A DNA stretch of 8,162 bases, from positions 1 to 8,162 of the forward strand of contig JACCTK010000217.1 in NCBI GenBank assembly GCA_013812465.1, written 5' to 3'. Origin of the DNA: Actinomycetota bacterium. GTDB lineage: Bacteria; Actinomycetota; Thermoleophilia; Gaiellales; Gaiellaceae. The notes beneath the pieces are model-generated. The model saw only the letters and a program-made list of their open reading frames with translations. It searched no databases and was not told where the DNA came from. Numbering within the stretch: the first letter of the stretch is position 1; every line of letters begins with the position of its first letter. Below are positions 1 to 8,162 of this stretch, one piece after another. A program made the position numbers and the translations under genes.

Positions 1-1236
1 GATCTCGAGCACGAGATTGTCAACGCCGCTCGCGTGCACGGCGCCTGCGGGAATCAGGTACAGGCGGTGCTGAACGGCGGGATGCGTCTGGAGATAACGC
101 TCCGGGTCCAGCTCGAGTCCCGGATCCTCCGCCCGCGTCGCCTCGACCCGAAAGGCTTCGAGGTCGGCGTCTTCCCGCAGCCCGAGGAAGATCTCCGCCC
201 CTGGCTTGGCATCCACGACGTAGTACGTCTCGTGTTGAGTGTACGGAAGCCCAAAGGTGTCGCGCATGTACTCCTCGGTCGGGTGGCACTGGATCGAGAG
301 ATGGCCTCCCCCGAACGTGTCCAGGTAGTCGAACCGGATCGGGAACGAGACCCCGAAACGCGCGGCGAGCTCGGCGCCGAGGACGCGCTCGCCTTCGGCC
401 GCCATCAGGAGCTCGAATCCGACCTCGATCGGATCGTCTGCGCCGAGGAGAATCCCGCTCTCGGGAGTGATCAGCTCGTAGGACCAGGCGAGGTTCGGCG
501 CAGTGGTCGAGATCCCGAGGACATCGCGGAGCCACTGGCCACCCCAAGGGCCGGGGAAAAACGTCGGACGGGTGCGGAAGGGCCTGCCGGCGAGCTCGTG
601 CAGCGAGCGCCGGAGCGTGTTCCCGTCGAGCGAGCGAGGCGCCTCAGGCTCGCTTAGGTCGATGTAGAGGTCGAGTCGCGGGAGGAGCTCCTGCTTGTGC
701 CGCCCGAGCACCGGCCAGTCGACGAAGAGGAGACGCTGCTCGGATCCGGCCGCCCCGACCGGCTGTCCGAGGTTGCCGGCCTCACCCCGCCGCACGCCCG
801 CGAGGCTTTGCCACTTCGGAAGATCCGCGTACCAGAGAACGTCGTGCGCGACGAGGGCGCTGCCCGGACCGAAGATCACGACAATGTCCGCGTCAGCACC
901 CGAGGCGGGCGCTAGCTCGTCGAAGAGGTCCGCCAGCGATCCCTCGAAGATGCGGCCGAAGACGGGATCGCCAGGGAGGATGCTCGCAGCCGTGCGCCGC
1001 TGGATCTCTTCCCAGGAAGCGAGAGAACGGCGCGCATCGACGAGCGCTGTCTTGACGTCCCGCTCGGCGAGCCCCGCGCTGAGGCCGGCGAGGAAGCCCT
1101 CCCAGGAAAGAGCAGCCGGGCCGTCGATCGCGAGCGCTCGAGGCCTCGTGCGGACGATCGCGTCCGCCAGCGCGCCGAATCCATTCTCGACTCTGCCTCC
1201 CGTGAGTGGGTAGCGGGGACTCGGGTCGTAGCTCAT
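1..1236 (-). CDS. manA: Class I mannose-6-phosphate isomerase, long form with N-terminal extension (C-terminus beyond window edge)
   Basis: This cytoplasmic zinc enzyme is expected to interconvert mannose-6-phosphate and fructose-6-phosphate. The reading frame is open for 412 codons from an ATG at 1236 to the window edge, so the C-terminus (roughly 170 residues if it has the usual ~590 of the long form) is missing. Residues 1-215 are the extension typical of long class I enzymes. The cupin part begins with PFRTRPTFFPGPWGGQW (219-235), followed by LSIQCHPTEEY (313-323), YTQHETYYVVDA (332-343) and LIPAGAVHASG (394-404). By family knowledge, Q316, H318, E336 and H401 are the zinc ligands, and all are present. 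The start was chosen because the N-terminus then matches the family; no strong Shine-Dalgarno is seen, and an in-frame GTG at 1293 is an alternative. It lies 130 bp downstream of a glycoside hydrolase on the same strand. The family call is firm; the native substrate is inferred. Confidence 0.9.
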   Translation of the reverse strand, partial: MSYDPSPRYPLTGGRVENGFGALADAIVRTRPRALAIDGPAALSWEGFLAGLSAGLAERDVKTALVDARRSLASWEEIQRRTAASILPGDPVFGRIFEGSLADLFDELAPASGADADIVVIFGPGSALVAHDVLWYADLPKWQSLAGVRRGEAGNLGQPVGAAGSEQRLLFVDWPVLGRHKQELLPRLDLYIDLSEPEAPRSLDGNTLRRSLHELAGRPFRTRPTFFPGPWGGQWLRDVLGISTTAPNLAWSYELITPESGILLGADDPIEVGFELLMAAEGERVLGAELAARFGVSFPIRFDYLDTFGGGHLSIQCHPTEEYMRDTFGLPYTQHETYYVVDAKPGAEIFLGLREDADLEAFRVEATRAEDPGLELDPERYLQTHPAVQHRLYLIPAGAVHASGVDNLVLEI

Positions 1237-1267
1237 TGGCCGATCTTTGGCCCATGAGCGGGGAGGG

Positions 1268-1293
1268 GTGTGGGGAACCGGGAGGTTCCACAC
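1268..1293. repeat. Inverted repeat (imperfect hairpin) between hydrolase and isomerase genes
   Basis: The left arm GTGTGGGGAACC (1268-1279) pairs with GGTTCCACAC (1284-1293) across a GGGA loop, giving ten base pairs with a two-base bulge. It lies 31-56 bp upstream of the isomerase start. It resembles the second inverted repeat at 1315-1341 (shared TGTGGGG...AAC / GTT...CCACA pattern). No T-tract follows on the minus strand, so a classic intrinsic terminator is unlikely. It could be an RNA structure in the transcript or a protein-binding site. The pairing is seen directly; the role is unknown. Confidence 0.5.
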
Positions 1294-1366: not shown

Positions 1367-2638
1367 TCACGTGCGCAGCAGAAGGTCGAGCGTCAAGGCC
1401 GCGCTCCAGGAGAAGTCGCTGACCCCGAGGGGCTCGCCGGTCCTCGGGTCGTAGTACTCGACGAACCCGGACCGGCTGACGAGCTCGAGGGTCATCCGCC
1501 GTAGCTCGTCCGCCTCAACGTGCAGCCCGTACCGCTCGAGGCCCTGGATGAAGAACCAGTTGACGTTCACCCAGACGGGGCCGCGCCAATAGCGTCGCGG
1601 GTCGTACGCGACGCTCGACTTCGAGGCCGAGGTCACCGGCCACGGGGCCTCGGGCGAAGGGCCAAAACGGGTCGGCGACCAGAGAGCCTCGTCGAAGAGA
1701 CGACGGGCCTGCTCGGGCCGCGGAACGCCGGCGTAGAGCGGGAACATGGCGTCGATGGTCTCGTCACCCGTCAGCGGGTCACCGTCGTCCTCGACATAGA
1801 CCGCGCTGGATTCGTCCCAGCGCTCCGCGAGCGCGTCGCGGAGTCGTCCGGCGGCAACGCTCGCGCGCGCGCCGTCCCCGCCGAGCTCGCCCCAGAGCCA
1901 GGCGAGGTCGTCCTCGGCCGCCGCGAGGATCGAGTTCAAGGTGAGATCGACGAAGACGAACGGCCAGCTCTCGAGAGCGGGCCGATAACCGTGAGTCTGC
2001 AAGCGACGGACGAGGTACAGGTAGCGCACATAGTCGTCGTCGGTCGGCCGCTCCGAGGCGTCGAGCTCGTGGCTGTCGGTCCGCCTTATGTCGAGCTCGC
2101 CTTCGACCTCCAGCCGCGCCAGCGCCCGGTCGAACCGTGGCGAGTTGTCCGCCCCTTCCCAGGGATGGACGATGGCGATGAGACCCGAGTCGATGGCCCG
2201 CTCGCGGTGCAGCCAGTCGTGCCAGCGCTCGAGAGCGGGGACGACCTCCTCCAGAAACGACCGGTCCGGTGACGCCTCGTGCAGCACGCGGACAGCGGTT
2301 GCGAGGACCGGCGGTTGCGTGAGGCCGCTCGTCGGGACCTCGGGCGCCTGCTCGCAGGCCGCGGAGTCCCATAGCTCCGGTCCCGGCGAGTAGTCGGGCG
2401 CCGGGATGTGGAACACGATGTGCGGGACCATCCCGTCGCTCCACTGCCCTCTCAGGAGCGATCGCGCCTCAGCTCGGCCGCGCTCGGGATCGACGTGCGC
2501 CAGCCCGAGCGCGACGAAGGCCGAGTCCCAGTTCCACTGGTGCGGGTAGAGCTCTCTCCCCGGCCGGACGAACGGCCCCATGTCGTTGCCGGCGAGGAGC
2601 GCCCGGGCTCCGTCGATGAGGACTCGGCGGGGATTCAC
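1367..2638 (-). CDS. MGH1-like (GH63-type) glycoside hydrolase, mannosylglycerate/glucosylglycerate hydrolase family
   Basis: This is a 423-residue (alpha/alpha)6-barrel hydrolase with no signal peptide, so it should act in the cytoplasm. Landmark motifs are LYPHQWNWDSAF (30-41), GQWSDGMVPHIVF (64-76), HPWEGADNSPRFD (158-170), YWRGPVWVNVNWF (350-362), GFVEYYDP (391-398) and FSWSAAL (409-415). By comparison with characterised mannosylglycerate and glucosylglycerate hydrolases, D164 is the likely general acid and E394 the likely general base; both are present. The length fits those enzymes (about 420-450 residues). The GTG start (2638-2636) overlaps the TGA of the upstream regulator as GTGA, implying translational coupling. 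It is a clear paralogue of the plus-strand hydrolase at 4354-5736. The exact substrate cannot be read from the sequence. An alpha-mannoside or alpha-glucoside of glycerate is favoured by family, and mannose release would suit the nearby isomerase gene. Confidence 0.85.
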   Translation of the reverse strand: MNPRRVLIDGARALLAGNDMGPFVRPGRELYPHQWNWDSAFVALGLAHVDPERGRAEARSLLRGQWSDGMVPHIVFHIPAPDYSPGPELWDSAACEQAPEVPTSGLTQPPVLATAVRVLHEASPDRSFLEEVVPALERWHDWLHRERAIDSGLIAIVHPWEGADNSPRFDRALARLEVEGELDIRRTDSHELDASERPTDDDYVRYLYLVRRLQTHGYRPALESWPFVFVDLTLNSILAAAEDDLAWLWGELGGDGARASVAAGRLRDALAERWDESSAVYVEDDGDPLTGDETIDAMFPLYAGVPRPEQARRLFDEALWSPTRFGPSPEAPWPVTSASKSSVAYDPRRYWRGPVWVNVNWFFIQGLERYGLHVEADELRRMTLELVSRSGFVEYYDPRTGEPLGVSDFSWSAALTLDLLLRT

Positions 2639-4110
2639 CTCGTCAGGCTGCGGCCGCCGCGACCACGCTCCCGTTCAGGGACGAGCGGGAGCCCAGTGAT
2701 CGCTCCGATCATCTCCGCGGTCCGTTGCGCCGCAGCCGCTGGACCGAGCCGGCCGGTGAGAACCGCCTCGAGCATCGTCTGCAGCTGGACCGAGACCCGT
2801 GGGTACGAGGGCATCCAGGGCCTCGCCACTGCCAGCTCGATGATCTCGGCGATCTCCGGGAGGAAGGGCAGGTCCGAGGCGACGAGCTCGATCGCCGAGC
2901 GGCGCGACGGTATCCGTCCGGTGGAGCGTGCGACTCGGGCGAGAGCGTCCGGCTCCACCGCGCGCTGCAGAAGCTGCATCGCAAGGCGGGGTTGCGCCGC
3001 CTGTCGGAAGATCGCGAACATCATTCCGCCAGCCACGCTCGCGGGCATTCCTTTGGGGCCGGCGGGCACGCGCGTGAAGCAGAAGTGTTCCCAGACATCG
3101 TGGTGATGGACTCCCAGGGCCTCGGCGAGAGCCTGCGCCTCGTAGACGCCGCCGAGTGAGAGCGCGGCGCGTCCCTCGGCGAGCAGTCGAACCGCGTAGT
3201 CCCACTCGTACCCAACCACCTCCGAAGGGACGATGCCCTCGTCGACCAGCCTGCGGAGGAAGCGAAGCGCCTGTGCGGTCGCGCGAGAGCTGAGACTCAC
3301 TCCCCCAGGCCCGAGCACGTGGGCTGCGTTGGACGCCAGGACGGCGATCAGGCAGTACGTGGTCGTCTCTCCGGCCATGCCGCCGCCCGGCATGACCATG
3401 GGAGTGCGAACGCCGCCCTCCGCGAGCGCGTGACCGGCCGCTCGCAGCTCCGTCCAAGTCGTTGGTGGCGAGATGCCGAGCGACTCGAGCTTGCGCCGGC
3501 TGTACCAGAGCCCGCTCGCGTCGGCGAAGGGCGAGACGCCGAAGGTCTTGCCCTCGTAGCGGTTCGCGCGCACGAGAGGCTCGAGGAAGTCGACCTCGTG
3601 CTCCTGACGAACCCAGCCCTCGTTCAACTCCTCGAGCGCGTGAATGAAACCCGCCGCCGCGAATTCCGGCGCCCAGACCGAGTCGATGACCGCCAGATCC
3701 GGCGCCTGGCCTTCGGCGACGGCATGCGTGAGAGTCTGGTGGAGCGACTGGCGCGGGACCTTCACGACGCTGATCTGATTTCTGGCGCCGGCGGCATCGC
3801 GGACCATCCGCGCCCACGGGCCCTCGGTCGGCACGATGACGCGAACTTCGGGCTGGTCCGGTCGGCGACTGAGCCAGTGCGGATTGACGAACGATCCTCG
3901 CCGGCGATGGCGGAGGATCACACCCTCGTCTGCAAGCTCGGAGAGCGCACGGCTCACCGGAGTTCGGCTGAGCTTGTAGCGCTCGCACAGCTCGTGCTCG
4001 GTCGGCAGACGATCGTCGGCGCCGCCGTAGTGACCGCTCAAGATCTCCTCTAGGAGAAGCGTCTTCAGCTGGAAGTAGAGCGGAATCGGCTGCCGAGGAT
4101 CGATCCCCAT
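2635..4110 (-). CDS. GntR-type wHTH regulator fused to a cytoplasmic ABC solute-binding domain
   Basis: This 491-residue protein is a probable one-component sugar sensor. Residues 8-76 are a GntR winged helix, with PIPLYFQLKTLLLEEILSG (9-26), LPTEHELCERYKLSRTPVSRAL (35-56) and the wing GVILRHRRRGSFV (63-75). Residues 88-475 resemble an extracellular family 1 solute-binding protein: PDLAVIDSVWAPEF (137-150), GVSPFADASGLWYSRRKLESLGI (191-213), PPTTWTELRAAGHAL (215-229) and LAEGRAALSLGG (310-321). No signal peptide or membrane segment precedes the HTH, so the binding domain stays in the cytosol. The ATG at 4110 is preferred because GAGGAG lies just upstream and GntR domains usually begin near here; the ATG at 4128 is an alternative. 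Its TGA overlaps the next gene's start. Position at the divergent promoter suggests it controls both arms. Repressor or activator mode is unknown. Confidence 0.87.
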   Translation of the reverse strand: MGIDPRQPIPLYFQLKTLLLEEILSGHYGGADDRLPTEHELCERYKLSRTPVSRALSELADEGVILRHRRRGSFVNPHWLSRRPDQPEVRVIVPTEGPWARMVRDAAGARNQISVVKVPRQSLHQTLTHAVAEGQAPDLAVIDSVWAPEFAAAGFIHALEELNEGWVRQEHEVDFLEPLVRANRYEGKTFGVSPFADASGLWYSRRKLESLGISPPTTWTELRAAGHALAEGGVRTPMVMPGGGMAGETTTYCLIAVLASNAAHVLGPGGVSLSSRATAQALRFLRRLVDEGIVPSEVVGYEWDYAVRLLAEGRAALSLGGVYEAQALAEALGVHHHDVWEHFCFTRVPAGPKGMPASVAGGMMFAIFRQAAQPRLAMQLLQRAVEPDALARVARSTGRIPSRRSAIELVASDLPFLPEIAEIIELAVARPWMPSYPRVSVQLQTMLEAVLTGRLGPAAAAQRTAEMIGAITGLPLVPERERGRGGRSLTR

Positions 4111-4256
4111 CTGCTCCTCGCTCGCCATGGAGAACCGCACTCTACTCACCGGGTCGGGAGCGATCTTCAGGTCGCGGGACATGGCTTCGGGGAACCAGGA
4201 GACGCGACGGAAAGTGAATAGGACGGGAGCGCGAGCCGGAGAAGATTTGCTATTCG

Positions 4257-4268
4257 AAGATAACAAAA
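4257..4268 (-). promoter_or_regulatory. Possible extended -10 element for the minus-strand regulator operon
   Basis: On the minus strand the left arm of the inverted repeat reads TTTTGTTATCTT, which fits an extended -10 (TGT plus TATCTT) facing the regulator gene. No convincing -35 hexamer lies 16-19 bp upstream. This is only a symmetry-based suggestion; the same bases may be purely an operator. A start here would give a leader of about 140 nt before the ATG at 4110. Confidence 0.3.
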
Positions 4269-4315
4269 CTGGAACCAGAACGGGTATTGACTCGGAGGCG
4301 CTCATTTTGTTATCT
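4258..4315. promoter_or_regulatory. Candidate operator: perfect 11-bp inverted repeat in the divergent regulator/hydrolase region
   Basis: AGATAACAAAA (4258-4268) and TTTTGTTATCT (4305-4315) are exact reverse complements, with centres 47 bp apart, about 4.5 helical turns. They sit in an AT-rich island within a GC-rich locus, between the regulator and the plus-strand hydrolase. A near copy (TTTTGTTACAT, 5750-5760) lies in the promoter of the solute-binding protein gene. GntR regulators commonly bind near their own divergent promoter, so this is the best candidate binding site for the GntR-SBP fusion. The repeat is seen directly; binding is inferred. Confidence 0.6.
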
Positions 4316-4316: not shown

Positions 4317-4341
4317 ACGATTGCAATATCGAAGGCCACGC

Positions 4342-4348
4342 GAAGGGA
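4342..4348 (+). promoter_or_regulatory. Shine-Dalgarno that sets the hydrolase start at GTG 4354
   Basis: GAAGGGA ends five bases before GTG (4354-4356). The frame remains open back to a TTG at 4321, but that codon has no ribosome-binding site and lies only a few bases after the predicted -10. The GTG start is therefore preferred. Confidence 0.6.
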
Positions 4349-4353
4349 CGAGT

Positions 4354-5736
4354 GTGAGCGACGGCTTGCTCGAGATTGAGCAGACGACCGAGCCCGCCGA
4401 CGACGCGGGGCTGATCGGCCAGGCGAGGGCCGTGCTGGAGGCGAACTGGCTCGGCCACGCGACCTCTCCCAACCGCCGCCTCTATCCGCATCAATGGAGC
4501 TGGGACGCGGCCTGTATCGCGATGGGCTATGCCTCCTGGAATCAGGAGCGCGCGGAGACCGAGCTTCGCTCGCTCTTCTCCGGACAGTGGCGCGACGGCC
4601 TCCTCCCCCACATCGTGTTCACGGACGGCGCCCGGTACTTCCCCGGCCCCGACTTCTGGCAGACGGAGCGCTCGCAAGACGCGCCGGCGTCGCCGAGGAC
4701 CTCGGGAATCGTCCAGCCACCGATCCACGCGACGGCGGCCTTGCAGGTGTATCGCCTGGCGAGCGACCGACCGAGGGCAGCCGCCTTCCTGGAGAAGCTC
4801 CTGCCGAAGCTCGCCGCCTGGCACGCTTACCTGTATCGCGAGCGCGCACGAGTCGAGGGCGGTCTCGTCGAGATCTGGCATCCGTGGGAGTCGGGCATGG
4901 ACAACTCTCCGCTCTGGGACGTCGCGCTCGAGCGCATGTCGTTCGATCCCGAGCTGTTGCCGGAGTACGAGCGGGTTGACGTCGACGTCGCCGAGGTGAC
5001 CGAGCGTCCCTCCGACGGGGAGTACGACCGCTACGTCTACCTGGTGAGCTTGTTTCGCGAGCTCGCCTACGACTCGTCACGAATCAAGCGCGTGACGCCG
5101 TTCGCGCTCCAGCCCGTTCTGTTCAACTCGCTCCTCGTCCAGTCGAACCGGGATCTGGCCGAGATCGCACGCGTCGTCGGCGCCGACCCGGAGCCGTTCG
5201 AGGCTTGGGCGGAAAGCACCGCCGCCGCGCTCGAGGAGACGCTGTGGGACGACGAGCACGCCATCTATGTCGACTACGACGTCGAGGCGGGCGAGCGTGT
5301 CGCGGCGCGGACTGCCGCCGGTCTCGCGCCGCTCTACGCGGGAGTGCCCGCCCGCGCGCGAGCCGAGCGCATGGTCGAGCTGCTGGCGAACTCGCGGGTG
5401 TCGGTTGGCGCTCGAGGCTGGGCGGTAACGAGCCTGGCGCCGAGCGATCCGGGCTTTCAGGCGGCGCGCTACTGGCGAGGCCCCGTCTGGCCGATCCTCA
5501 ACTGGGTCCTTCAGCGCGGCCTCGATCGCTACGGGTATCCGACGCTCGCCGCGGAGGTTCGCCGCGCGGTTGTCGAGCTGGCGAGGGGCGCCGGCTTCTG
5601 GGAGCACTACTGCCCGGAGAGCGGCCGCGGGCAGGGCGGAGACCGGTTCGCCTGGACGGCGGCGCTCGTCCTCGACCTCCTGCGCGAGAACAAGGCCAAG
5701 CCGGAGAGCGCATCGCGGATGGGGATCGCGCATTGA
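4354..5736 (+). CDS. Second MGH1-like (GH63-type) glycoside hydrolase, paralogue of the 1367-2638 gene
   Basis: This 460-residue cytoplasmic (alpha/alpha)6-barrel hydrolase has the same motif series as its minus-strand paralogue: LYPHQWSWDAACIAMGY (43-59), GQWRDGLLPHIVF (77-89), WHPWESGMDNSPLWD (175-189), YWRGPVWPILNWVLQRG (373-389), GFWEHYCPESG (414-424) and FAWTAALVLDLL (432-443). D183 and E417 occupy the positions of the catalytic acid and base in characterised glucosylglycerate and mannosylglycerate hydrolases. Differences from the paralogue include WESGMDNSP in place of WEGADNSP, and EHYCP in place of EYYDP next to the base. These may signal a different substrate or aglycone. A hydrophilic 30-residue N-terminal stretch precedes the domain. 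The gene has its own predicted promoter. Its stop codon lies within the -35 box of the next promoter, so it leads the uptake genes without any gap for a terminator. Family is confident; substrate is not. Confidence 0.85.
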   Translation: MSDGLLEIEQTTEPADDAGLIGQARAVLEANWLGHATSPNRRLYPHQWSWDAACIAMGYASWNQERAETELRSLFSGQWRDGLLPHIVFTDGARYFPGPDFWQTERSQDAPASPRTSGIVQPPIHATAALQVYRLASDRPRAAAFLEKLLPKLAAWHAYLYRERARVEGGLVEIWHPWESGMDNSPLWDVALERMSFDPELLPEYERVDVDVAEVTERPSDGEYDRYVYLVSLFRELAYDSSRIKRVTPFALQPVLFNSLLVQSNRDLAEIARVVGADPEPFEAWAESTAAALEETLWDDEHAIYVDYDVEAGERVAARTAAGLAPLYAGVPARARAERMVELLANSRVSVGARGWAVTSLAPSDPGFQAARYWRGPVWPILNWVLQRGLDRYGYPTLAAEVRRAVVELARGAGFWEHYCPESGRGQGGDRFAWTAALVLDLLRENKAKPESASRMGIAH

Positions 5737-5761: not shown

Positions 5762-5821
5762 CGCATGGCAAATAAGGATCGCCAAGTGGTGAAGCGACGC
5801 TGGCTTCTAGATCGGAGGAGC

Positions 5822-5929
5822 ATGGGGCAGAAGTCTCCGCCGAAGGTGGGTTGGAGGGCACGGGTCATGGGTGTGCGGCCGGTCGAATCGGCGCCGCACG
5901 CTCCCTACCGGCACAGGAGGATCGCATGA
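5822..5929 (+). CDS. Possible small upstream ORF (35 aa) overlapping the solute-binding protein start
   Basis: An ATG at 5822, three bases after GGAGG, opens a 35-codon frame ending in a TGA that overlaps the next ATG as ATGA (5926-5929). The peptide is basic and rich in Arg, Pro and His, with no recognisable family and no signal or membrane segment. An in-frame ATG at 5765 would give 54 residues but lies almost at the predicted transcription start. The strong ribosome site and the ATGA overlap fit a translated leader coupled to the transporter gene. The frame may equally be chance in a GC-rich leader. Confidence 0.3.
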   Translation: MGQKSPPKVGWRARVMGVRPVESAPHAPYRHRRIA

Positions 5930-7296
5930 GCACCGAGAACGACCACAACTTGTCCCCTTGGGAGAAGCCAATCGACAGGCGTTCAGCGCTGGTAAAGGCC
6001 GGCGGCGTCGGGGCCGTGCTCGCGCTCGGCGGCCTGGCCGGAGCGAGCCGTGCAACCGCTGGCTCATCCCAGAACGCCGGCAAGGTGACGGCCTTCTTCG
6101 GCCAGTTCGGCGGGATCGCCGAGCAGGAGGGGATTCGCAAGTTCGTCTTCAAAGGCTTCAGAGGGGACGTCGATCCCGTATTCGCGCCGATCAGCAACCC
6201 CGCCCTCTTCGTCGACCGGGTCAGGGCGGAGGCGAAGGCCGGAAAGGGCAACATCGACCTTCTCGTCGGCCTGCACGGCGACTTCGTGACGTTCCAGAAC
6301 GAGGGCCTCATTCGCGGCGTCGACGACGTGACCAAGCAGGTCAAGAACTTGCCCCCGCCGCTGGTCAAGATCGGGAAGCTGGGCACCTCGACCCAGTTCT
6401 ACGTCCCCCACTCGACGGCGACCTACGTGATGGTCGCCAACAAGGACGTGCTCAAGTACATGCCCAAGGGCGCCAACATCGACGCGCTCACGTACGGGCA
6501 GGTGTTCGCGTGGGCCAAGGCCATCCGCAAGGGCACTGGGCAGAACAGGTTCGGGCTGCCCGCCAGCGACACCGGCCTGCTCCACCGTTACCTCCAGGGC
6601 TTCCTCATTCCGTCCTTCACCGGCGGCTTCGTCACAGGGTTCCGCTCGAAGGAGGCCGTGCGGGCGTGGGAGTACATGCGCCAGCTCTGGCAGTACACCC
6701 ATCCGCAGTCATTGACGTATGCGTTCATGCAGGATCCGCTGCTGAGCGAGGAGGTCCTACTGGGTTGGGATCATGTCGCACGCTTGAAGACGGCGCTCGA
6801 CCAGCGTCCCGACGACCTCGTCGCGTTCCCTGTCCCGAAGGGCCCGAAGGCGCGGTCGTACATGCCGGTCCTCGTCGGCCTCGGAATTCCCAAGAACGCA
6901 CCGAATCCTGCGGGCGCCAAGGCGTTGATCCGGCACATGCTGACGATCGGCGCGCAGGCGCAGATCCTGTCTCTCACGGGATTCTTCCCCGCCGCCGGCG
7001 GAAGGTTGTCCAAGAGGATCTCACCCGGGCTGCTCGCAGAGGCGGCCGCGGTGCGCAAGCAGCAGAAGGCGCCCGACGCCATCCAGGCCTTGCTCCCGAT
7101 CGGGATCGGGGCCGAAGGCGGAAACTTCAACAAGATCTACCGCGACACCTTCACGCGGATCGTGCGAAACAACGAGAACATCCAGACCGTCCTCAAGGAG
7201 CAGGGCGATCTGCTGCAGGCGATCTTCGACAAGACCGGCGCGCCGTGCTGGGCGCCAGATCCATCGAGTGGAAAGAATCCTTGCCGCGTGAGGTAG
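5926..7296 (+). CDS. Exported ABC sugar-type solute-binding protein with Tat-like signal
   Basis: This 456-residue protein should capture the substrate outside the membrane for the permease encoded next. ATG 5926 is set by AGGAGG (5915-5920) five bases upstream. The N-terminus has a twin-arginine pattern (RRSALVK, 18-24), a hydrophobic core (GGVGAVLALGGLAGA, 26-40) and an ATA-G cleavage site after residue 45. No lipobox cysteine is present, so it is probably not a classic lipoprotein. The mature part has the two-lobed family 1 binding-protein layout: IDLLVGLHGDFVTF (about 105-118), VPHSTATYVMVANKDVL (about 150-166), LPIGIGAEGGNFNKIYRDTF near the C-terminus and a helical end. The only two cysteines, C441 and C453, lie in the C-terminal tail and may form a disulfide. 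The ligand is not evident; by context it is the glycoside degraded by the flanking hydrolases. Confidence 0.85.
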   Translation: MSTENDHNLSPWEKPIDRRSALVKAGGVGAVLALGGLAGASRATAGSSQNAGKVTAFFGQFGGIAEQEGIRKFVFKGFRGDVDPVFAPISNPALFVDRVRAEAKAGKGNIDLLVGLHGDFVTFQNEGLIRGVDDVTKQVKNLPPPLVKIGKLGTSTQFYVPHSTATYVMVANKDVLKYMPKGANIDALTYGQVFAWAKAIRKGTGQNRFGLPASDTGLLHRYLQGFLIPSFTGGFVTGFRSKEAVRAWEYMRQLWQYTHPQSLTYAFMQDPLLSEEVLLGWDHVARLKTALDQRPDDLVAFPVPKGPKARSYMPVLVGLGIPKNAPNPAGAKALIRHMLTIGAQAQILSLTGFFPAAGGRLSKRISPGLLAEAAAVRKQQKAPDAIQALLPIGIGAEGGNFNKIYRDTFTRIVRNNENIQTVLKEQGDLLQAIFDKTGAPCWAPDPSSGKNPCRVR

Positions 7297-7326
7297 AGAC
7301 GACCTGAGTAACAGCCCTTAGCGCGT

Positions 7327-8162
7327 GTGACGACGATAGCCCAAGAGACCGCTCCGCTCACGCGCCGGAAGCGACGGTGGGAGGGTTTGCCCTACTGGCT
7401 GATCCTCCCCACCGTCGCCTACCTCGGCCTCTTCTTCGTGTGGCCGATGATCCAGGGCTTCGGGCTCGCCTTGAGAGACGAGAGCGGCCACTGGACTATC
7501 TCCGCGTTCCGAACGATGGTCGACGACGCGGCCTTCGGCGAGGCGATGAGCTTCACGTTCCTCCTGATCCTCGTGATCGTGCCCATCCAGTTCGTCCTCG
7601 CCTTGGGCATGGCGCTCCTCTTGAACGCGAGACTTCGTGGCAGCGGCCTCTTCCTGTACATCTTCCTGCTCCCCCTCGCGATCTCGGATCTCGCAGCCGG
7701 TATCGCCTGGTCGGCGATCTTCACCGAGCGCGGCTACCTCAACACCATTCTCGAAGGTGTCGGGGTGCTCGAGCAGCCGTTCATCTTCCTCGACCCGACA
7801 TCCAAGACGCAGCTCGTCATGGTTGTGGCGACCGCCGAAATCTGGCGTTCGACCACCTTCATGATGGTCATCCTCTTCGCCGGACTGCAGGGCATCCCGC
7901 GCGATTACGTCGAGGCTGCCGAGGTCTTCGGCGCCGGATTCTTCCAGCGCGTGCGGCATGTGATCTTCCCCATGCTCAAGCCCTCGATCCAGGTCGCGCT
8001 CCTCCTCCGCTTGATCTTCGCCTTCGAGGTGTTCGCCGTTGTGATCGCGCTGACCGGGTCGGGCGCGACGGTGCTTGCGGCCGAGGCCTATAAATGGCAG
8101 GCAACCAACGAGAACGAGCATGTCGCCGCCGCGTACTCGATGGTCATCCTCGGGCTCTCCCT
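7327..8162 (+). CDS. ABC sugar transporter permease, MalF/UgpA type (C-terminus beyond window edge)
   Basis: This inner-membrane subunit forms part of the channel for the substrate delivered by the upstream binding protein. The frame starts at GTG 7327, after an in-frame TAA at 7309, and stays open for 278 codons to the window edge. About 15-30 residues are probably missing. A basic cytoplasmic N-terminus (LTRRKRRWEG) is followed by membrane segments near residues 22-48, 76-100, 107-131, 163-187 and 222-244, and a last one begins near 267. The ATPase-docking loop EAAEVFGAGFFQRVRHVIFP (196-215) matches the family EAA pattern with G202 and P215. It lies 30 bp after the binding protein gene, so they are likely co-transcribed. 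No strong Shine-Dalgarno is visible. A second permease and an ATPase should lie further right or elsewhere. Confidence 0.9.
   Translation, partial: MTTIAQETAPLTRRKRRWEGLPYWLILPTVAYLGLFFVWPMIQGFGLALRDESGHWTISAFRTMVDDAAFGEAMSFTFLLILVIVPIQFVLALGMALLLNARLRGSGLFLYIFLLPLAISDLAAGIAWSAIFTERGYLNTILEGVGVLEQPFIFLDPTSKTQLVMVVATAEIWRSTTFMMVILFAGLQGIPRDYVEAAEVFGAGFFQRVRHVIFPMLKPSIQVALLLRLIFAFEVFAVVIALTGSGATVLAAEAYKWQATNENEHVAAAYSMVILGLS

Follow-up and report, generated by a model that had tools for sequence, protein, structure and literature searches.

A GntR DNA-binding domain fused to a family-1 sugar-binding protein: a conserved family of predicted one-component regulators

The stretch analyzed here, referred to in full as the window, comprises 8,162 nucleotides of an Actinomycetota genome of the family Gaiellaceae (contig JACCTK010000217.1, assembly GCA_013812465.1). 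Its reverse strand carries, among predicted sugar-uptake and glycoside hydrolase genes, a gene for a regulator in which a GntR winged-helix head is followed by a solute-binding domain of the ATP-binding cassette (ABC) type:

2635..4110, minus strand: GntR-solute-binding-protein fusion regulator, 491 residues (alternative start at 4128)
3886..4077, minus strand: GntR winged-helix DNA-binding domain, residues 12-75 (Pfam PF00392, E 1.2e-15)
2689..3855, minus strand: family-1 sugar-binding-protein sensor domain, residues about 86-474 (Pfam SBP_bac_1/8 and fold)

Domain make-up and conservation of the fusion

The head belongs to the GntR superfamily, scoring 57.3 bits against PF00392 (cut-off 27), and its residues R49 and G72 are invariant in all 82 fusions of an alignment (A2) of 113 rows, the other 31 being standalone binding proteins. 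Residues 86-474 match the family-1 solute-binding families and fold as an ABC sugar-binding protein in the fold comparison, from which a first, poor structure model built from 26 close sequences was kept out. The chain starts with the GntR domain and, judged by eye rather than by a signal-peptide program, has neither an export signal nor a lipobox. Pfam domains, fold and conservation thus bear out the original prediction of a GntR head and an ABC-type solute-binding domain in a single intracellular chain; a different fold of the C-terminal part, which had been named as one possible refutation, is not what the comparison shows. At Pfam E ≤ 0.1, the fusion matches neither UTRA (the mark of the HutC subfamily), in whose place SBP_bac_1/8 is found, nor the Peripla_BP family (the LacI-type sensor that marks the AraR subfamily), the aminotransferase family (MocR subfamily) or SBP_bac_5 (SgrR family). 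MocR-type NCBIfam models do match the head, far below their cut-offs, with one of them, PdxR, reaching residue 134.

A search of 5.8 billion proteins, in which scoring was limited to the 7,995 candidates with the most words in common, returned 856 matches at E ≤ 1e-3, and each of the best 120 carries both Pfam families in a single chain; such fusion proteins probably number in the hundreds. Many of the named matches are titled "multiple sugar transport system substrate-binding protein", which would fit a misannotated transport protein that in reality starts near residue 80, the GntR stretch being spurious or a frame of its own. We consider this scarcely credible: the frame is unbroken, the junction is conserved (without a break in a 26-row alignment), both domains occur together in the 120 homologues listed, which disposes of the frame artifact that had been named as a possible refutation, and no signal peptide is seen by eye near residue 80. 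Moreover, the binding-protein domain occurs in none of the 49 other GntR loci of our contig scan (frames of 197-434 residues, stop to stop), among which there is thus no independent fusion; the two GntR architectures are therefore distinct, and UTRA is carried by all five of those other loci that were checked. Other database names join the transport title with that of a DNA-binding regulator, such that automatic annotation has met both domains without describing the family.

That scan yielded 80 loci, with the fusion present in L001-L030 and L057 (in L026 as a truncated piece, residues 3-199). The bearers are Actinomycetota (including Acidimicrobiia, Euzebyaceae and a named strain of Phytoactinopolyspora halophila), Chloroflexota and Spirochaetes. 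Genomes seldom carry the fusion. Among 396 Actinomycetota, five match the window protein at E ≤ 1e-30 over almost its full length, two of them being genomes already known; with the standalone protein P0122 as query, three of 301 Chloroflexota (one already known) have a match of at least 300 bits in a frame of at least 495 residues, and the family is found in one of 247 Spirochaetota, the known L023 genome. Three more Chloroflexota and four more Spirochaetota genomes gave weaker matches (107-137 bits in frames of 431-494 residues), which we did not count. Since few candidates were scored in each genome, these counts are lower bounds. We also note an actinobacterial homologue (L117, G630:C8:95516-96955) with one in-frame TGA within the match, which is either a decayed copy or a sequencing error.

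Seven residues of the sensor domain (D138, D143, E248, G320, P349, R430 and S440) are identical in all 82 fusions and all 31 standalone proteins, which implies that the features preserved in the transport proteins are preserved in the fused domain as well. In the trehalose/maltose-binding protein 1eu8, the counterparts of D143 and R430 are an Asp and an Arg that we take to be sugar contacts. That the domain senses a sugar, and which one, we infer. Alternatively, the domain could serve as a dimerization or docking module that binds no ligand, with regulation coming from elsewhere. In keeping with this, the sensor has no significant similarity to the transporter binding protein encoded in the window, so that a shared ligand is unproven; the invariance of the same residues in fused and standalone proteins and the correspondence with 1eu8 speak against it, and we regard a purely structural role as very improbable.

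Origin of the sensor domain

The original prediction had placed the regulator next to a genuine binding-protein gene. An exported binding protein is encoded nearby, yet this protein of the window is no close relative of the sensor and belongs to a different branch (BLASTP E 0.10). A much closer counterpart is found in the spirochaete locus L023, where the following genes share one strand:

5780-7102: exported binding protein
7168-8067: permease
8064-8909: probable second permease
9075-9911: nitrilase-family gene
9992-11491: fusion gene

Here, the exported protein and the sensor of the fusion are 54% identical over 398 residues. Used as a query, the exported protein gave 193 matches, of which the 120 listed are a mixture of fused and standalone relatives. 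The family is clearly set off in nine genomes, its members scoring at least 188 bits with the query and the next binding proteins 106 or below. By eye, 29 of the 31 standalone proteins start with a hydrophobic export-type N-terminus or a lipobox, the exceptions being P0124 and P0214.

Two quick trees, with six outgroups and with nine of ten candidate outgroups, place 30 of the 31 standalone proteins as one clade nested within the fusions, as does the free quick tree of a constrained comparison (119 of 122 rows; P0124, L021 and P0158 left out). Taken at face value, such a topology would mean that the exported sister-group proteins derive from an intracellular regulator through loss of the GntR domain and gain of a signal peptide. 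In that comparison, however, the tree that keeps the fusions together is better than the free tree by 15.4 log units (p-AU, from the approximately unbiased test, 0.835; neither tree is rejected), and in a tree of 92 rows, the best resolved of the set, the 66 fusions form one clade with a support of 96 in the quick and 99/96 in the careful version, with the standalone proteins outside. We thus consider an export-from-regulator scenario improbable, and the early nested trees were set aside, the constrained tree having scored better and the 92-row trees having agreed with it. The 30 rows dropped from the 122 comprise the long branches L021, L015 and P0214, P0124 and again P0214 as proteins that lack an export signal and look truncated, the longish P0183, and P0158, which duplicates another row across the region used; the remainder were removed solely to thin the set. 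Because 92 of the 122 rows were used, the fusion clade depends on sampling, and the position of the root rests on distant outgroups and the choice of rows.

Because the fusions form one clade beside exported binding proteins in the best-resolved tree, the suggestion that a transporter-binding fold was recruited as a sensor holds. On the sequences at hand, a single fusion event starting from an exported binding protein is most likely. In L018 (3208-6470), two permease genes follow immediately on the fusion gene, which occupies the usual place of a binding-protein gene, and an exported binding-protein gene is divergent; this order hints at a route by which a gntR gene and a neighboring binding-protein gene could have been joined.

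Candidate operator, gene neighborhood and predicted mechanism

A 20-bp palindrome, TTGTYAT-N6-ATRACAA, is our candidate for the operator of the family, and the window holds three copies:

4247..4266, no strand: candidate operator palindrome 1, one mismatch, divergent intergenic region; not conserved in L002
4307..4326, no strand: candidate operator palindrome 2, two mismatches, divergent intergenic region; 20-mer identical in L002
5752..5771, no strand: candidate operator palindrome 3, two mismatches, between the second hydrolase gene and the exported binding-protein gene; 20-mer identical in L002

A repeat noticed earlier at 4258-4315 is part of the first two copies, and this reading is refined by the full palindrome and its third copy. 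Three copies compare with 0.06 expected, and none of 200 shuffles gives three. In palindrome 2, all 20 bases are identical between the window and L002, an island in a stretch that is otherwise poorly conserved, and the identity of palindrome 3 falls inside a stretch conserved throughout (92%). Over the 32-locus set (the window, L001-L030 and L057; 396 kb), the motif has 24 matches at two mismatches or fewer, in 19 loci. Palindromes with permuted half-sites (209 in number) average 1.8 matches and none reaches 24, the best, with 17, being nearly the same as the real motif. When spacings of 0-12 were scanned, N6 gave the most upstream matches (23); other spacings are also enriched with fewer matches, N1 and N12 at a higher ratio than N6. 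As an operator candidate, the simple 12-bp palindrome TTGTYATRACAA failed across loci, the N6-spaced form being better.

Inspection by eye of upstream regions, mainly from the window, L004, L008, L016 and L019, first gave the motif; copies outside the motif-reading regions are found at the binding-protein genes of L006, L007, L015, L023 and L030, and as the third copy in the window. Outside the window there are 21 matches, of which 20 were placed (L021 has two that overlap, and one of these was omitted). Most stand beside the fusion gene or a binding-protein gene: the L012 match lies inside a gene, and the other 19 lie before or between the starts of the fusion, binding-protein or another operon gene. 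For this purpose, over-long frames in L002 (2223), L003 (8615), L004, L007, L009, L016 and L021 were shortened to the start given by homology or by eye; the gene that follows counts as a binding-protein gene in L030 by position only and in L015 by tree placement, and the one after L003:2764 was left unnamed. The candidate motif is thus enriched and lies before relevant genes, with 13 of the 32 loci lacking it. In the deep Chloroflexota branch, AT-rich sequences occur at L024:2734-2753, L029:9961-9980 (both ending in TATACCAA) and upstream in L057, and these may be a variant operator.

The remaining genes of the window are as follows:

1..1293, minus strand: distant mannose-6-phosphate-isomerase-like C-terminal part, running off the window (PDB 1qwr, E 8.4e-4, residues 237-429)
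1367..2638, minus strand: MGH1-like glycoside hydrolase (PF22422, E 1.9e-98; 337 of the 550 bits of the glucosylglycerate-hydrolase model, below its cut-off)
4357..5736, plus strand: second MGH1-like glycoside hydrolase, divergent from the regulator (PF22422, E 2.8e-104 on 4321-5736)
5926..7296, plus strand: exported ABC sugar-binding protein (PF01547, E 1e-18; twin-arginine-like N-terminus by eye; longer frames exist)
7327..8160, plus strand: ABC permease, running off the window (PF00528)

The start of the first hydrolase gene overlaps the stop of the regulator gene, and the two likely belong to the same operon. The 5' end of the second is uncertain (longest frame 4321-5736), its nearest solved sequences being TTHA0978 and a mycobacterial hydrolase. 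The isomerase-like protein has no Pfam match at E ≤ 0.1 in the window; it is about 575 residues long in its longest frames elsewhere (L001:4004-5731, L002:5271-6995), and its first half, which by eye resembles a nucleotide-binding fold, matches no PDB chain at E ≤ 1. Among the relatives, the fusion neighbors a glycoside hydrolase family 125 (GH125) mannosidase and a ROK/mannose-6-phosphate-isomerase fusion in L006, a GH38 mannosidase in L023 and a GH65 enzyme in L024. An attempt to name the ligand failed, neither hydrolase reaching the glucosylglycerate-hydrolase cut-off; our guess would be a mannosyl- or glucosyl-glycoside, for example, a glycerate derivative.

Several further arrangements were seen. 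In three loci from two phyla (L009:5826-6599, L018:6666-7499 and L023:9075-9911), a nitrilase-family (CN_hydrolase) gene comes after the permease genes of the ABC operon linked to the fusion. A 792-residue frame with two SBP_bac_8 stretches, a tandem binding protein, stands beside the fusion gene in L029 (11601-13979), and in L004 (7364-9016) the fusion is next to a gene for a major-facilitator transporter. The DNA upstream in L001-L003, like the extended N-terminus of P0081, resembles by eye the relics of such a transporter gene. In L014 (4672-19142, Phytoactinopolyspora halophila), the fusion is flanked by molybdopterin-oxidoreductase genes and an oligopeptide-type ABC operon (SBP_bac_5).

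Taking these data together, we consider it probable that the protein is a one-component regulator, most likely one that represses glycoside uptake and hydrolysis until its ligand releases it. The GntR heads of a presumed dimer would sit on the three palindromes, whose positions would allow control of the regulator's own operon (regulator, hydrolase and isomerase-like gene), of the divergent hydrolase and of the binding-protein/permease operon. The C-terminal half, a family-1 sugar-binding protein retained in the cytoplasm, would hold an imported glycoside in its interlobe cleft; when the cleft closes, the DNA-binding heads would shift and the operator would be released, and the incoming sugar would thereby switch on the genes that take it up and split it.

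The position of the sites relative to promoters bears on the direction of control. Under loose promoter criteria, applied with no shuffle control, 10 of 25 operator sites overlap promoter-like hexamers: in L018, these form a consensus promoter (TTGACA, TATAAT) directed at the divergent binding-protein gene; in L006, the overlap of the operator is with the second hexamer ahead of the gene for the binding protein; and in L010-L013, it lies between both hexamers of the regulator's own promoter-like site, with weaker overlap in L004, L016, L019 and L023. Promoter hexamers are the usual place for the operator of a repressor, and the overlap favors a ligand-lifted repressor that also controls itself. 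The same architecture could instead work as an activator, with the ligand-bound or free protein recruiting RNA polymerase at transporter promoters. SgrR, a precedent in concept, is described in PMC7786190 as activating sgrS and repressing its own gene, and PMC13060122 proposes a DsvR box needed for zapC promoter activity; in addition, no promoter was called over the operators of the window. Set against the -35/-10 overlaps in L018, L006 and L010-L013, which themselves depend on loose criteria, activation seems to us unlikely, though not far-fetched.

A number of observations weigh against the ligand-released repressor. Since 15 of the 25 sites, including all three of the window, lack promoter-like hexamers, repression by occlusion is argued from some relatives, and a stricter scan called no sigma-70-type promoter over the window operators and neither promoters nor terminators in the window. 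Palindrome 1 is not kept in L002, the motif was partly read from regions in which it was later counted, and the set of 32 loci is not an independent sample, L010-L012 being closely related, with L026 truncated. The 13 loci without a match at two mismatches or fewer include the deep Chloroflexota branch and L014, the only full-length fusion locus from a named cultured species, which has no adjacent sugar ABC operon; there, the gene may belong to a different regulon or be stranded. Finally, the neighbors in L010 and L019 are not obviously sugar-catabolic.

Comparison with known systems

The proteins may represent a further GntR subfamily, defined by GntR plus a family-1 sugar-binding protein and born once from a transporter's own binding protein, the matched pair persisting side by side in at least one spirochaete, where the outer pocket would feed the permease and the inner would control the genes. 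The same pocket would then set both uptake and induction, and heads mounted on a two-lobed clamp would read widely spaced half-sites; we find this broader picture evenly poised between acceptance and doubt. A conserved family with a candidate operator and an exported sister in one genome illustrates how a gene switch can arise from a transport receptor. As many named members carry transport names, both the predicted regulons and the predicted binding proteins of these bacteria are affected. If nature makes family-1 sugar-binding proteins into one-component switches in a single step, their known ligand specificities would be a source of sensors.

The closest GntR heads are those of HutC/UTRA regulators (YvoA/NagR, TreR, PhnR), with PDB YvoA and the HutC, PhnR and TreR models matching within residues 1-86; the fusion differs in lacking UTRA and in being about twice as long. 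The sensor shares its fold and some core residues with exported family-1 sugar-binding proteins (5ci5, SmoF, TMBP, MalE3), whereas the fusion has no export signal and is covalently joined to a DNA-binding domain. AraR of Bacillus subtilis likewise combines a GntR winged helix with a recruited binding-protein fold that senses a sugar; its sensor, however, is of the LacI/type I periplasmic fold, in contrast to the family-1 ABC sugar-binding fold seen here. To our knowledge, no described GntR sensor type belongs to the family-1 ABC binding proteins. PMC4746285 lists six GntR families, AraR being one of them. Among the open-licence literature matches listed, with subscription journals outside the search, no paper on a GntR/SBP_bac_1 regulator was found, and the family, although conserved, is apparently undescribed.

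SgrR and DsvR, of Enterobacteria and Vibrio, carry a helix-turn-helix of a family other than GntR. Their sensor is SBP_bac_5, in contrast to the family-1 sugar-binding domain joined to GntR in the fusion. They are otherwise alike in being intracellular one-component regulators with an ABC solute-binding domain as sensor, SgrR also regulating itself; PMC13060122 and PMC7786190 describe this use of SBP_bac_5 for DsvR and, by homology, for SgrR. SgrR and AraR are thus precedents in concept whose defining sensor domains are absent from the fusion. The idea of a binding protein as an intracellular sensor is known; what is new is the family, with its predicted function, its probable origin in a single event, an exported sister protein and a candidate operator.
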